The translations under genes were made by a program, and so were the position numbers. DNA of 64,000 nt from Alkalibacillus aidingensis (GTDB taxonomy: Bacteria > Bacillota > Bacilli > Bacillales > Alkalibacillaceae): assembly GCF_014595945.1 (NCBI RefSeq), contig NZ_JABXWU010000004.1, positions 1 through 64,000 on the forward strand, read 5' to 3'. Under the pieces are notes generated by a model. That model did not search any database. It had not been told where the DNA came from and saw only the letters and a program-made list of their open reading frames with translations. Shown here in pieces: positions 18,684 to 54,758 of the stretch (the stretch's first letter is position 1; every line of letters starts with the position of its first letter).

Positions 18684-19088
18684 TTGAGGTTATTACTTTT
18701 GAGTTTTGTTTCAGTGATCATCTTGGCAGCATGTAATCAAACCATATCAAAAGATGAAATGATTAGTGACATGACAGCACCAGAACCACCTAAGTACTTC
18801 ACTCTGTATGCAGTTTCTGAAGGTGAGAACTTTACAGATTATTATGATGTAGACGCAATTAATCGGTCATTAAGCGAAGAAAGTAGAGAGTATCTTTATG
18901 ATGGAGGGATTATTTGGACTTGGGATCGACTTGCTGATAATACGACCTGGGATTATACAGGAAACTTTGGTATAGAAAGCTTTCCTACCTTTTTAGTATT
19001 TGATACGGATGAATTAATTCTTAAAACAACTGATATTAATGAAGTTGATACATTTTTAACGACAAATAAACCTGACTGGAGAGAGTGA
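18684..19088 (+). CDS. Small lipoprotein, thioredoxin-like fold without CXXC
   Basis: A 134-residue predicted lipoprotein: the signal peptide LLLSFVSVIILAAC has the lipobox LAAC with Cys17. The C-terminal part, FGIESFPTFLVFDTDELIL, looks like the cis-Pro and last strands of a thioredoxin fold, but no CXXC redox motif is present. It is related to the lipoprotein at 54042-54410, which shares FGI-x-x-(F/Y)-PTF and the following strand/helix pattern. The start is TTG after a run of seven G residues. Function unknown; it probably sits on the outer face of the membrane. Confidence 0.7.
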   Translation: MRLLLLSFVSVIILAACNQTISKDEMISDMTAPEPPKYFTLYAVSEGENFTDYYDVDAINRSLSEESREYLYDGGIIWTWDRLADNTTWDYTGNFGIESFPTFLVFDTDELILKTTDINEVDTFLTTNKPDWRE

Positions 19089-49720: not shown

Positions 49721-50151
49721 TCTACGCCTGGAGCCAGCTTGTAAGTGGTGTGCGTGGTCAAAGAGACGAGCCCTCTACGCCCGGAACTGGCTTGTAAGTG
49801 GTGTGCGCGGTCAAAGAGACGAGTCCTCTACGCCCGGAGCCGGCTTGAAAGTGGTGTGCGCGGTCAAAGAGGTGGGTCCTCTACACCCGGAGCTGGCTTG
49901 TAAGTGGTGTGCGCGGTCAAAGAGACGAGCTATCTACGCCCGAAGCTGGCTTGTAAGTGGTGTGCGTGGTCAAAGAGACGAGCTCTCTACGCCCGGAACT
50001 GGCTTGTAAGTGGTGTGTCCGGTCAAAGAGACGAGCCCTCTACGCCCAGAACTGGCTTGTAAGTGGTGTGTCCGGTCAAAGAGACGAGCTCTCTACGCCC
50101 GAAGCTGGTATAAAGGAGCACACCCGGTCAAAGAGAGACAGTCTCTTTTCC
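49721..50151. repeat. Tandem array D, 53-bp units (family 2)
   Basis: Eight units with GGTCAAAGAG at 49756, 49809, 49862, 49915, 49968, 50021 and 50074 (53 bases apart) and a last at 50126. Each contains GGTCAAAGAGACGAG, CTCTACGCCCGGAGC, and TGGCTTGTAAGTGGTGTG. Period and core (GGTCAAAGAGA, CCCGGAGC) agree with array B. Translations across the array have no homologous look and are not genes. Confidence 0.92.
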
Positions 50152-50951: not shown

Positions 50952-51118
50952 ATTTAGGTCACCCTTTGAATAATAATTCATAATTTTATCATAAATCATA
51001 TAGGAAGAAAATAAAATATCATCACCACAGATAATCTCTTGTCTGTTTTCAAAGATTTATGTAGAAGTGTAGAGACATAAGTTGTAAAGGTTATATTTTG
51101 GGGGAAGGAGGATGTATG

Positions 51119-51451
51119 ATGGATTTTTGGTCAGTCCTCATCGTTGTCTGTTTAGCAGTTATTGTTAGTTTATCCGTTAGAGAGCATATGAAATGGAAAT
51201 CTTTTTATGAATCAGCTGGTCATAAACCAAAGGATGTAACCATTCGCTATTTATTTTTAAGATCTAATGGTGTTCGTTGTCGATTGAAAAGTATTAATCA
51301 TCGAATAGGCTTAGGTGTAAGTGGAGGATCAGATTTAGACACAACCGTTAAATTACTCGTTCATAAACACGATCTTCATAAAGCACATGATGCTATGACA
51401 GAATTTAATAAAGAAGAAGCACGCCCCTATTATATTAATTTAATCAAGTGA
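51119..51451 (+). CDS. Small membrane-anchored DUF2007-like protein A
   Basis: A 110-residue protein with one N-terminal membrane helix (about 3-20) and a compact domain with RYLFLRSNGVRCRLKSIN, followed by TTVKLLVHKHDLHKAHDAM. This resembles DUF2007 (signal-transducing-type, PII-like) domains. It is a paralogue of the protein at 54459-54758. The second of two ATGs is preferred because it lies 7 bases after GGAGG. Function unknown. Confidence 0.68.
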   Translation: MDFWSVLIVVCLAVIVSLSVREHMKWKSFYESAGHKPKDVTIRYLFLRSNGVRCRLKSINHRIGLGVSGGSDLDTTVKLLVHKHDLHKAHDAMTEFNKEEARPYYINLIK

Positions 51452-51508: not shown

Positions 51509-51584
51509 GGTCAAATGTGCTAAAATATGTAGGAAGATTTGTAGTATTTTGATAAATAGATGAACACAGTAAAGGGTGGTCATA

Positions 51585-52523
51585 ATGTTACTGAAAAAAA
51601 GTTGGAGTTTAGGGATCGCACTTATCTTAATATTTATAGTAACAGGATGTGAAGAGGAAGCTATAAGTCTTGAAAATGTAGAAATTCCGGAGAAAAGTGA
51701 AGGGTTTTTTTGGGAAGCAGAGCATAATAATAAAACCATTTATTTCTTAGGGACTGTGCACATTGGAAGCGAAGATATGTATCCTATGCGCGATGAAATT
51801 GAAGAAGCTATGGCTGAAACAGAGCTGTTGTTAAGTGAGTACGATGAATCTAATGAAACCATTCAAAATGAATATGAAGACATTAGAATGGAGTACACGT
51901 ATTTGCCTAGTGGTGAGCAATTATCAGATTACTTGTCTGATGATCATATGGATTTGGTTAGAAATATAGAGGAAGAATTAAATATTCCTTACTATATATT
52001 AAATTCATTTAAACCTTGGAGAGTTCAATCACTCTATGAATCTATGATCCTTTCAAATTATGACTACTCATATGAACAAGGGGTCGAGGCGTATTTGTAT
52101 AGTCAAGTTCTAGAACATGCTGAAGGTATGGCGTTGGAAGACTTGGAAACGAATATACAATCGGTGCGCGATCGGGATCTGGACTATCAGCTCTATTTAC
52201 TCGAAGAGGTATTGGAAGCTTCAGAGGAAGAAGTTGAAGAGGAAATAGAGAGTACAGTCGTTGCTTGGCGTACAGGTAAAGAATCGTTGGTTGATCTTTC
52301 AAGGGCCGTTGGTGACGAGGAACAAATACCAGAAATCAAAGAAACGCATATTGAGGAATTGTTATTTAATCGTGATCGACAAATGGCGGAAAAGATAGAC
52401 GAAGTCGTTCATAGTCACGAGGCTGAAACGATCATGATCGCTGCTGGCTATGCCCATTTCTTCGGTCCTGATAATATGATCGTATTATTAGAAGACGAAG
52501 GATATGAGATTGAAAGGAAGTAG
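51585..52523 (+). CDS. TraB/GumN (ChaN/PrgY-like) family lipoprotein
   Basis: A 312-residue lipoprotein, lipobox VTGC with signal peptide SWSLGIALILIFIVTGC. The GumN/TraB pattern is visible: IYFLGTVHIGSEDMYPMRDEI at about 50-70, LLSEYD, NSFKPWRVQS, and the C-terminal IMIAAGYAHFFGPDNMIVLLEDEGY. GTVH and GAGH-like motifs may bind a metal in proteins of this family. Members include pheromone-control protein PrgY. An acidic protein that presumably faces the outside. ATG at 51585 follows AAAGGGTGG. Confidence 0.85.
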   Translation: MLLKKSWSLGIALILIFIVTGCEEEAISLENVEIPEKSEGFFWEAEHNNKTIYFLGTVHIGSEDMYPMRDEIEEAMAETELLLSEYDESNETIQNEYEDIRMEYTYLPSGEQLSDYLSDDHMDLVRNIEEELNIPYYILNSFKPWRVQSLYESMILSNYDYSYEQGVEAYLYSQVLEHAEGMALEDLETNIQSVRDRDLDYQLYLLEEVLEASEEEVEEEIESTVVAWRTGKESLVDLSRAVGDEEQIPEIKETHIEELLFNRDRQMAEKIDEVVHSHEAETIMIAAGYAHFFGPDNMIVLLEDEGYEIERK

Positions 52524-52595: not shown

Positions 52596-53477
52596 TTATA
52601 GCGTTGTCGACTCTTGGAAGGTTTCGATATCATATTTGATGATTTGTGCCAGTTGTTCTTTACCTTCAAGCTCAAAAAGGAACTGGGATTTTTTCCAATA
52701 ATCAATTCCCTTTTCTTTATGTCCCTGTTTTAATAAGTTTCGCCCGATTTGGTAATGGAAGTCTGCGAATAAAAATAAATCTTCATATTCCCGGCAATAG
52801 GAAAGTCCTTGGTAGCATACTTTTAGTGATTGTTCAGTTTTACCTAAATCGGTATAAACTTTTGCTAAATTATACCGTACTTTGGCAATGATACGCTTGT
52901 CTTCTAGATTTGTGATGTCGTTGATTAAGTCATAAGCCTGTTCATGATAGTTTTGGGCTTCTAGTAACATACCTTCGTCTCTAAACATTATACCTAGGCT
53001 ATTTAATATATGAATGTTAATTTCTGCAGAAAAACGATCAAATGAAGACAAACGTAAACATTCTTTTAATTTACTGATAGCCGTTTTAAAATCATCGTGA
53101 TGATAATATTGTGCTAATGCACTATGCCACAACAGAAAACGATGTTCTTGTTGTGTTTGAAATAAAGGATTGCTTTTTTCAGCACTAACAATTTCATCGA
53201 TAGTTTCGTAATCTCTATTTCTTCTTGCTTTTTCTAATTGTGACCAAACCTCATTTAAATAATCTTCTCGTTCACTTTCAGAATCGGAAAGGAAATATGT
53301 AATATTGACACCTAATTTATCGGATATGCCTTTAAGTGTCATATAGGATGGTTGATGTTGATCGCGTTCAATACGACTTAACTCAGATTGTGAACAAATC
53401 CCATTCGCTAGGCCTTCTTGTGAGATGTTCAGGCGTTTTCGTAAATCTTTAATCTTCTCTCCGACAGATAAATTCAT
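52596..53477 (-). CDS. PlcR-like (RNPP family) transcriptional regulator
   Basis: A 293-residue cytoplasmic regulator. Residues 1-62 form a helix-turn-helix domain (GEKIKDLRKRLNISQEGLAN then GICSQSELSRIERDQHQPS), whose recognition helix is nearly the same as PlcR of the Bacillus cereus group as I recall it (QSEVSRIE). Residues 70-290 are TPR-like helices, e.g. NLAKVYTDLGKTEQSLKVC and GRNLLKQGHKEKGIDYWKKS. RNPP proteins bind a re-imported peptide. AGGGAG precedes the ATG. The divergent small gene at 53653 encodes a PapR-like pre-peptide, and the intergenic region holds a PlcR-box-like site. Confidence 0.85.
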   Translation of the reverse strand: MNLSVGEKIKDLRKRLNISQEGLANGICSQSELSRIERDQHQPSYMTLKGISDKLGVNITYFLSDSESEREDYLNEVWSQLEKARRNRDYETIDEIVSAEKSNPLFQTQQEHRFLLWHSALAQYYHHDDFKTAISKLKECLRLSSFDRFSAEINIHILNSLGIMFRDEGMLLEAQNYHEQAYDLINDITNLEDKRIIAKVRYNLAKVYTDLGKTEQSLKVCYQGLSYCREYEDLFLFADFHYQIGRNLLKQGHKEKGIDYWKKSQFLFELEGKEQLAQIIKYDIETFQESTTL

Positions 53478-53492
53478 TTTTCATCTCCCTTT

Positions 53493-53508
53493 TATGCATA
53501 AACGCATA
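53493..53508. promoter_or_regulatory. PlcR-box-like palindrome
   Basis: TATGCATAAACGCATA matches the PlcR consensus TATG-N-A-N4-T-N-CATA with one mismatch (C instead of T at position 11). It lies 15 bases upstream of the start codon of the PlcR-like regulator, an autoregulation position. Binding is inferred from similarity of the recognition helix. Confidence 0.6.
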
Positions 53509-53588
53509 AATTTCATAAAAAAGTGTGGAAATATACTAAATTATTGTTAAAATCGCTCTAAATCAATTATACGCAACAATTCTGAACT

Positions 53589-53617
53589 TTTACAACTCTA
53601 TTACATCCATAGATAAT
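53589..53617 (+). promoter_or_regulatory. Promoter of the PapR-like peptide gene
   Basis: TTTACA (53589-53594) and GATAAT (53612-53617) with 17 bases between, about 36 bases before the start codon. Confidence 0.55.
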
Positions 53618-53652
53618 AGATTTAGATTAATTAAGAGGGAGGTGTAGCAATT

Positions 53653-53778
53653 ATGAAAAAGTTACTAGTCTTAACTATCCTACTAGGAGCAATTTTAGGT
53701 TTTGCACCAACTCAAACAGCGGTTCAGGATTTAGATGACCGTACTGTAACGGTACTTGATCTACCGGGTCAGCACTAA
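53653..53778 (+). CDS. PapR-like secreted signalling pre-peptide (41 aa)
   Basis: A 41-codon gene with a strong ribosome binding site (AGAGGGAGGTG). The product has a Sec-type signal sequence (MKKLLVLTILLGAILGFAP), a short acidic linker (VQDLDD) and a C-terminal end TVLDLPGQH. PapR of the B. cereus group begins MKKLL and ends with DLPFEF, the active peptide; here DLP is in the same place. It is divergent from the PlcR-like gene instead of downstream. Processing and function are inferred. Confidence 0.75.
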   Translation: MKKLLVLTILLGAILGFAPTQTAVQDLDDRTVTVLDLPGQH

Positions 53779-53821: not shown

Positions 53822-54041
53822 TAGCCCAAACGATTTCGATTTTCAATTTTTTGATCAGTACAGCAAGAAGTTTATATCTATTCAAGTAATGATAAACTCA
53901 ATCACGCTCACAAAATGGTTTCACCTCAGCCACATCCTCCTTAATCTCACACATTAGGGAGGGTGACCCCTTATTTTTTCAATTCATACATATGAGAATT
54001 TCACCTTGGTTTTGATCAATCCTATCTATTAGGAGGAGGAA

Positions 54042-54458: not shown

Positions 54459-54758
54459 ATGGGAAAAACCATAACTTTATTAACTGTTATCTTAGTATCG
54501 TTGATTTTTATCAAGGTAAGAGACTTGCGTTTTTGGGAAACATTCTATGAAATTGAAGGCAGTAAAAGCAACGAGGCAAGTCATCGTTATACATATTTAA
54601 AGAGCAGAGGCATTCGTTGCCGTCTGCAACATGTTAATTCGAAAATTGGTGCATTTGTACATAGTGGGAATGAATTTGATACAACTGTCAGACTGCTAGT
54701 TCATAAGGAAGATTATAATCAGGCAGAGCATGTCATGGAGAATTTCGGACAATTTTAA
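54459..54758 (+). CDS. Small membrane-anchored DUF2007-like protein B
   Basis: A 99-residue protein with one N-terminal membrane helix (about 3-20). Core RYTYLKSRGIRCRLQHVN and TTVRLLVHKEDYNQAEHVM correspond closely to those of the protein at 51119-51451, so the two are paralogues. It follows the lipoprotein gene and precedes a bidirectional terminator. Function unknown. Confidence 0.7.
   Translation: MGKTITLLTVILVSLIFIKVRDLRFWETFYEIEGSKSNEASHRYTYLKSRGIRCRLQHVNSKIGAFVHSGNEFDTTVRLLVHKEDYNQAEHVMENFGQF

Follow-up and report, generated by a model that had tools for sequence, protein, structure and literature searches.

In the genome of the salt-loving bacterium Alkalibacillus aidingensis a regulator gene and a gene for a predicted secreted peptide stand back to back, and the question raised by this locus is whether the two form a signalling pair comparable to PlcR and PapR of the Bacillus cereus group, in which papR lies downstream of plcR. 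A sequence-only reading of the locus had proposed such a pair, in a variant form and a head-to-head arrangement. In the stretch of 64,000 nucleotides that was analysed (hereinafter the window), the coordinates, the helix string CSQSELSRIE of the regulator, the 41-codon gene with its strong ribosome-binding site and the tail TVLDLPGQH, and the box between the two genes are all confirmed (Table 1). Further, the comparative data support the reading that a receptor resembling PlcR is paired, outside the B. cereus group, with a divergent gene for a PapR-like peptide, and the sequence comparisons point to a system that looks and probably works like PlcR/PapR.

Table 1. Features of the regulator-peptide locus; positions are those of the 64-kb window.
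Feature	Position	Strand	Remarks
PlcR-like regulator, 293 aa	52596..53477	-	HTH (CSQSELSRIE, residues 28-37) and TPR peptide-binding domain
PlcR-box-like inverted repeat TATGCATAAACGCATA	53493..53508	no strand	Candidate operator; start codon of the regulator at a distance of 15 bp
Sigma-A-like promoter, regulator gene	53566..53595	-	TTGTAA-N18-TATAAT
Sigma-A-like promoter, peptide gene	53589..53617	+	TTTACA-N17-GATAAT, 10/12 consensus matches
Ribosome-binding site, peptide gene (AGGGAGGTG)	53636..53644	+	8 nt before ATG; read directly
41-codon propeptide gene	53653..53778	+	Sec-type leader by hydropathy; predicted mature signal C-terminal (about LDLPGQH)
C-rich stretch with a terminator-like stem and its T run	53880..53975	+	Between peptide and lipoprotein genes; conserved
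Thioredoxin-like lipoprotein, 122 aa	54042..54410	+	Part of present/absent cassette; Pfam Thioredoxin_8 weak, 0.091
DUF2007-like small protein, 99 aa, hydrophobic start	54459..54758	+	Cassette end; DUF2007 0.0079, below cut-off

With respect to the regulator, Pfam detects an RNPP_C domain (6.8e-18) and an HTH_3 domain (2.1e-11), both above cut-off, and the best sequence match in the PDB is PlcR (2qfc) at 1.3e-16, or 4.1e-22 with a five-sequence profile. An AF2 model computed from 31 rows (pLDDT 90.1, pTM 0.72) retrieves PlcR at all of the first five ranks of a Foldseek search, headed by 3u3w, the PlcR-PapR7-DNA complex (TM 0.75/0.78, 25% identity). A grouping of the regulator with non-peptide-binding HTH proteins, which would have spoken against the proposed pair, is not observed, its nearest solved kin being a peptide receptor. 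Both hallmarks of RRNPP systems are found at the locus, namely the N-terminal HTH with a C-terminal RNPP-type TPR domain, as seen by Pfam, AF2 and Foldseek, and the adjacent short Sec-exported propeptide gene, whose export signal is a hydropathy prediction.

The residue comparison with PlcR also bears on the peptide groove. In PlcR, the glutamate of PapR7 contacts K89, Q237 and Y275, as described in PMC6568020, and in the docking model of the paralogous PlcRa given in PMC3519770, N205 and K208 hold the main chain of the peptide; the latter two residues are equated here with PlcR N201 and K204 by their numbering offset. The window protein retains PlcR N201 as N203, K204 as K206 and N159 as N159 (Cys in locus L014), and carries R88 in place of K89, as do 8/8 aligned rows of the clade to which it belongs (see below). 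PlcR Q237 and Y275, on the other hand, are replaced by D239 and L276. Since these two residues are changed and the window peptide is devoid of the glutamate that they contact, side-chain recognition must differ from that in PlcR. The presumed backbone-holding part of the groove is thus kept, with part of the side-chain pocket differing, like the peptide end.

The 41-codon gene specifies a basic start followed by a hydrophobic stretch, with the Sec signal judged by hydropathy alone, and ends in the tail TVLDLPGQH. Homologues are present in genomes G002, G003 and G004 and also at loci of A. filiformis and A. haloalkaliphilus, which may be the same as numbered genomes and are counted once; the tails of these relatives read TVLDLPGLH (G002; A. 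filiformis L009) or TVLDLPDLH (G003, G004; A. haloalkaliphilus L010, L011). Coding constraint is evident against both G002 (pN 0.13, pS 0.58) and G004 (pN 0.16, pS 0.70), and by this measure the gene is evolving as coding sequence. Across an alignment of four sequences the ribosome-binding site AGGGAGGTG is invariant, all gaps within the gene are in frame, and the tail after the leader is well kept while the middle varies. The small gene had been liable to prove absent or unconserved beside orthologous regulators; instead, it is present, and divergent from the regulator, in 9/9 rows of the window's clade, in keeping with the proposed head-to-head arrangement. The peptides of these rows end in LDLPGQH, LDLPGLH, LDLPDLH, FDFPDQH, ADFPDQH, NDLPDQH or QDLPDQH, of which NDLPDQH (L074) was missed by the small-ORF finder and was read by eye in L184, and all nine conform to the pattern D[LF]P[GD][QL]H. 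As regards the DLPFEF-type end known from PapR, the D[LF]P core is hence retained in the clade, with the termini GQH, GLH, DLH or DQH instead. More distant relatives carry the tail in tandem, as in ELPGVYELPGVHELPGVHELPGVH (L127), AELPPMLTELPPML (L098) and TELPTLFGNVGTTELPTLF (L147), with repeats in L133 too; these repeated tails suggest that the mature peptide unit comprises 6-7 residues.

The sequence-only reading had also put forward a co-occurrence check among relatives, and here the regulator, the peptide gene and the box are found together in 4/6 Alkalibacillus-type genomes, the remaining 2/6 being without both genes. The orthologous regulators of the other three system-bearing genomes are 75-78% identical to that of the window. 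In the two negative genomes (G001, G005) the best regulator match is a 30-31% paralogue accompanied by a different peptide, ending in EDDLGxID, and a search with the window peptide yields no match at E up to 1; there the two genes bordering the cassette in the window, of the TraB family and the PepF type, adjoin each other, about 50 bp apart. The thioredoxin-like lipoprotein follows the same distribution, with a homologue (47-48%) beside the pair in G002, G003 and G004 and no match at 1e-5 in G001 and G005, as does the 99-aa DUF2007-like protein, a homologue of which occupies this position in L009 and L011 but not in the G001 and G005 stretches examined. One gain or loss event may account for the shared absence in G001 and G005, and the joint presence and absence has therefore to be counted as one piece of evidence and not as six.

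Several neighbouring features may be recorded at this point. The gene at 51576-52523, convergent with the regulator, encodes a lipoprotein of the TraB/PrgY/gumN family (Pfam 6.1e-42). PrgY acts on a pheromone in Enterococcus; as a member of the cassette, however, the TraB/PrgY-family gene is rejected, since G001 and G005 retain it despite having no such pair, and since in L009 and L011 some 3 kb separate it from the pair. Two DUF2007-like small proteins (51098-51451 and 54459-54758), matching the same relatives, flank the stretch from the TraB-family gene through regulator and peptide to the lipoprotein, and the lipoprotein has weak homologues (31-34% identity) at 18714-19058 of the window (G000:C20) and at G000:C19:155799-156137. 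The conserved C-rich stretch at 53880-53975 (GGTTTCACCTCAGCC.CATCCTCCTTAA), with its long terminator-like stem, might represent a small RNA or else a 3' UTR; the corresponding alignment columns, about 432-510, are largely invariant in four sequences, and the sole Rfam match is far below threshold and located elsewhere. A tandem array with a 53-bp unit (7.3 copies, 89% matches) occupies 49721-50108. In A. filiformis (L009 5005-5880) and G004 (L013 486-1367) an Rgg_C-family regulator (Pfam 4.7e-31 and 6.9e-33, respectively) adjoins the PlcR-like gene, thereby placing two peptide-receptor-type regulators side by side; the Rgg_C gene is absent at the corresponding place of the window. The same genome as the window encodes a second RRNPP pair (L006, G000:C1:881053-881868), a paralogue with a divergent propeptide ending in GEIEDDLGTLD, and similar pairs occur in G001 and G005. 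A mobile origin was considered and set aside, there being no sign of it at the window locus and the 47 plasmid and 7 phage records matched by the regulator all falling below 60% identity. The best of the plasmid relatives (44%) is encoded on a 628-kb Rossellomorea plasmid (L223, CP128836.1), in the divergent region of which a leader-like half and a half ending in ADYPDQH lie in different frames.

The wider affinities of the regulator were traced with 120 loci, consisting of the best matches listed together with the window and L006, and hence not a random sample. Matches at 1e-25 or better occur in 175/397 genomes of the order, and matches at 1e-30 in 23/398 genomes of the class. In a quick tree of 117 of these regulators (3 dropped) and PlcR, the window falls within a starred clade of nine rows, comprising four Alkalibacillus-type rows, L015 (G021), L072 and L073 (G236, G258), and L074 and L075 (G095, G126); eight rows of this clade are recovered with 100/100 support in a 41-row tree made of the operator-bearing rows and PlcR, minus seven named rows. 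PlcR forms a long branch outside the window clade in both free trees, and a topology constrained to unite PlcR with the rows bearing a TATG-type box is not rejected (p-AU 0.175). Strict membership in the PlcR subfamily is accordingly left undecided, on account of this test and of the peptide gene not lying downstream as papR does.

Recounting at less than 95%, 90% and 80% identity leaves 111, 104 and 96 rows, of which the 90% set is reported here. Within 450 bp of the 104 regulators, the best small secreted-type ORF is divergent in 61 cases, downstream in 12, convergent in 7 and upstream in the same direction in 2, with no candidate ORF in 22. Family tails are present in 54/61 divergent ORFs (LPxx in 40, DLG/PGP-type in 14), and 53/54 of these lie at 155-210 bp. 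The finder ranks its candidates with a bonus for the tail motif, and without the bonus the counts for the 117 rows are the same (63 divergent with tail). These sequence comparisons show the window pair as one branch of what appears to be a widespread, mostly head-to-head PlcR/PapR-like family: its description as a variant system therefore stands as to kind, whereas the impression of an isolated oddity does not.

The same counts help to evaluate a different role for the small gene, namely that it encodes some other secreted peptide, antimicrobial or a plain small exported protein, which is under the control of the regulator while the ligand comes from elsewhere. That the tail is the ligand is something we infer, and the 22/104 regulators for which the finder returns no peptide candidate indicate that orphan receptors may exist. 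However, the tail beyond the leader is preserved whereas the middle of the peptide varies and has in-frame gaps, which is not what such a role would lead one to expect; nor is this role readily squared with tail types that follow the regulator tree and are repeated in tandem in some relatives, or with the background of small secreted-type ORFs, of which 0/24 in 118.7 kb end in an LPxx, DLG or PGP-type tail. This alternative is consequently regarded as very improbable, and the tail as the likely signal.

Turning to the intergenic box, TATGCATAAACGCATA is indeed one mismatch from the PlcR consensus TATGNANNNNTNCATA, as had been claimed, with C for T at position 11, and it is the sole TATG-N8-CATA sequence of the 64-kb window. 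Sites within one mismatch of TATGNANNNNTNCATA number 3 in the window as against 4.2 expected, so the box by itself is not significant and the evidence is its conservation. A TATG-N8-CATA repeat lies directly upstream of the regulator in 9/9 rows of the clade, staying at one place while the flanks change, and two other lineages (L134/L143 and L198/L212) have the repeat at the same place. The match to TATGNANNNNTNCATA is exact in L015, L072, L073, L074, L134 and L143, has one mismatch in the window, L012, L013, L014 and L075, and two in L198 and L212.

The genome-wide site scan envisaged in the sequence-only reading does not, for its part, bring out a clear or large PlcR-like regulon. The exact consensus occurs at 6 places in G000 versus 2 for a reversed control, and the clade box with up to two mismatches gives 28 matches versus 28 for the reversed control in six genomes. 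With a broader clade pattern applied to 11 genomes, the four system-bearing genomes of the genus yield 22 strand matches versus 22 in the control, and the two genus genomes without the system 10 versus 8; in G021, G236, G258, G095 and G126 the pattern is commoner than the control, and of the sites in these five genomes those in L165-L184 were examined, several being inside genes or before spore genes. Sites before a coat-protein-like gene (L050, L056, L057, L063) and before a cwlD-like gene (L002 and L166, in G000 and G021) look, in our reading, like spore sigma-factor promoters. The one good additional site, which precedes the gene for a secreted-type protein in G004 (L052), was dropped as a target, the gene being found in 1/6 genomes. 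On these counts a local circuit with few targets appears more likely than a wide regulon. As separate observations, a second PlcR-like box directly follows the regulator gene in the two genomes of one genus, G236 (L175 4055) and G258 (L183 5284), in the latter case ahead of a YwhD-like gene, and in G095 (L184 2800) a PlcR-like box lies between two secreted-type protein genes and a lipoprotein-like gene, which are possible local targets.

The even box counts also favour the possibility that the TATG-N8-CATA repeat is no operator, being conserved instead as a promoter or RNA feature while the regulator binds another site. The similar sites before the cwlD-like gene in G000 and G021, the plasmid relative from Rossellomorea, which has Arg at the helix position discussed below and no box, and the mismatch at position 11, a position conserved in the PlcR consensus of PMC2464732, are all compatible with this possibility. 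Against it stand the fixed place of the inverted repeat amid changing flanks in 9/9 clade rows and its recurrence at that place in the L134/L143 and L198/L212 lineages, in view of which we consider it improbable and retain the box as the candidate operator.

Further, the predicted divergent promoters of the peptide and regulator genes of the window overlap in their -35 hexamers. Among 22 rows scanned, this overlapping pair is also present in L012 and L013, where the peptide promoter is of the same place and type, and in a looser form in L015; it was not found in L072-L075. Promoter-like matches in the region do not exceed those in shuffled sequences (10 found versus a mean of 7.3, sd 2.8), so the argument for the promoters is their conservation within the family.

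A further line of inquiry concerns the relationship between the recognition helix and the operator. Operators were sought in the 75 bp preceding the regulator gene, and their classes defined by eye, resulting in 13 rows with TATG-N8-CATA, 34 with ATATAA...GGnAT and 70 with neither among 117 rows. In the 118-row set, residue 35 is Arg in 13/13 rows of the first class and Lys in 34/34 rows of the second; in the set below 90% identity the figures are 12/12 and 27/27, with neither operator in 65/104 rows. PlcR likewise has Arg at the position of window R35. Helix positions 31 and 32 are also split (S/G versus A, 33/34; E/M/L versus Q/Y), and in the 70 rows that matched neither pattern, a number of which look on inspection like near-variants, residue 35 is K in 39, R in 19 and another residue in 12. 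The Arg/Lys split emerged from a scan of 22 columns for which the operator classes were already set, and on the tree of residue 35 and operator it requires three changes, with one contrast on well-supported branches; owing to these few independent changes, significance cannot be claimed for the link. Covariation of helix and operator is for these reasons, and in view of the many rows with neither operator, rejected as independent proof and kept as a lead, and the 44% Rossellomorea plasmid relative, with Arg and no TATG-N8-CATA box, speaks against a strict rule. It nonetheless seems possible, in a tentative reading that we would not yet favour, that the helix sets two DNA codes, Arg35 reading TATG-N8-CATA and Lys35 reading ATATAA...GGnAT, in compact insulated switches devoid of a wide regulon, the window being of the Arg35/TATG type with a peptide dialect of its own. 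The operator would then lie just upstream of the receptor gene, inside the divergent promoter region of about 155-210 bp; in the window the box would be altered, and in its genus the two promoters would compete through the overlapping -35 hexamers.

Taken with the predicted fold, what sequence comparison has established here is the conservation of the genes and their coding constraint, their joint presence and absence, the box, and the promoter-like sequences of the genus; export, cut site, uptake, peptide binding, the sign of regulation and the targets are what we infer. On this footing we regard it as likely that the locus is a self-contained, head-to-head RRNPP (PlcR/PapR-like) quorum-sensing pair operating as follows. 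The 41-codon gene would be transcribed from TTTACA-N17-GATAAT and its propeptide exported via Sec, after which the last 6-7 residues or so (near LDLPGQH) would be released from its C-terminus as a peptide. This peptide would be taken up by an oligopeptide permease, for which the seven SBP_bac_5 matches in the genome represent a possible route, and would occupy the regulator's TPR groove, whereupon the peptide-loaded dimer would bind at TATGCATAAACGCATA. This box precedes the -35 of the peptide promoter by 80 bp and is situated at about +50 to +67 from the predicted transcript start of the regulator, and because of this position relative to both promoters its binding would most likely activate the peptide gene, in a positive feedback, and limit transcription of the regulator itself. 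The overlapping -35 hexamers would additionally make the two promoters compete.

The same placement of the box, between the predicted promoter of the regulator gene and its start codon, 15 bp short of the latter, is that of a roadblock, and could also belong to a repressor, the free form of which blocks its own gene on the box until the peptide releases or re-aims it, amounting to autoregulation as opposed to PlcR-like activation. There are precedents among such receptors described in PMC6536502, in that taking up the peptide lowers the affinity of PrgX for DNA and inhibits DNA binding by AimR. However, the nearest solved relative, PlcR, is switched on by its peptide, and repression is consequently deemed unlikely, with activation by the loaded regulator kept as the preferred reading.

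Systems of the PlcR type, tables of gene orientation and extensive candidate catalogues have already been published. PMC9765709 counts 141 PlcR homologues and places Virgibacillus in its Table 1 with AimR and NprR, and the main text of PMC10075063 does not name Alkalibacillus, Halobacillus or Virgibacillus, and the present pairs may be contained in its figures, supplementary tables or propeptide set. In titles and abstract openings of the open-literature papers listed, nothing was found on this pair or on the two operator classes. The present system would extend PlcR/PapR-type signalling beyond the B. cereus group to relatives that favour salt and alkali, and its layout lends itself to tests in harmless strains. 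With its natural variants of receptor, peptide and operator, it could become possible to deduce from sequence both peptide specificity and DNA specificity, and one may ask whether the broad regulon of PlcR had its origin in a two-gene switch of this local kind.

Compared with PlcR/PapR of the B. cereus group, the window system shares the HTH and TPR fold, the groove residues N159, N201 and K204, the Arg at the position of window R35, the TATG-N8-CATA palindrome and, with PapR7 (ADLPFEF; PMC6568020), the DLP core of the peptide. It differs in the sequence of the regulator (about 25% identity, with Q237 and Y275 replaced), in a box that is off by one base, in a peptide ending in GQH and not FEF, in a peptide gene that is divergent in the window and in 9/9 clade rows and not downstream, and in that no large regulon is visible from box counts. 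The candidate subfamilies of RRNPP_detector in PMC10075063 are similar in being receptor-propeptide pairs catalogued by adjacency, with their orientation tabulated. PlcRa/PapRa of B. cereus, as presented in PMC3519770, resembles the window pair as a PlcR paralogue with its peptide gene upstream of the regulator gene; unlike the window peptide, PapRa is 93 aa long with an internal heptapeptide, CSIPYEY, and for the promoters of PlcRa-regulated genes the same source reports no palindrome. As for the Alo systems of Paenibacillus, the short ORF is given in PMC7425212 as immediately downstream in all but three homologues and AloR is placed with nine-TPR folds in PMC12700828, in both of which respects they differ from the window system, with which they share the combination of a TPR receptor and an adjacent short propeptide gene (PMC7425212).
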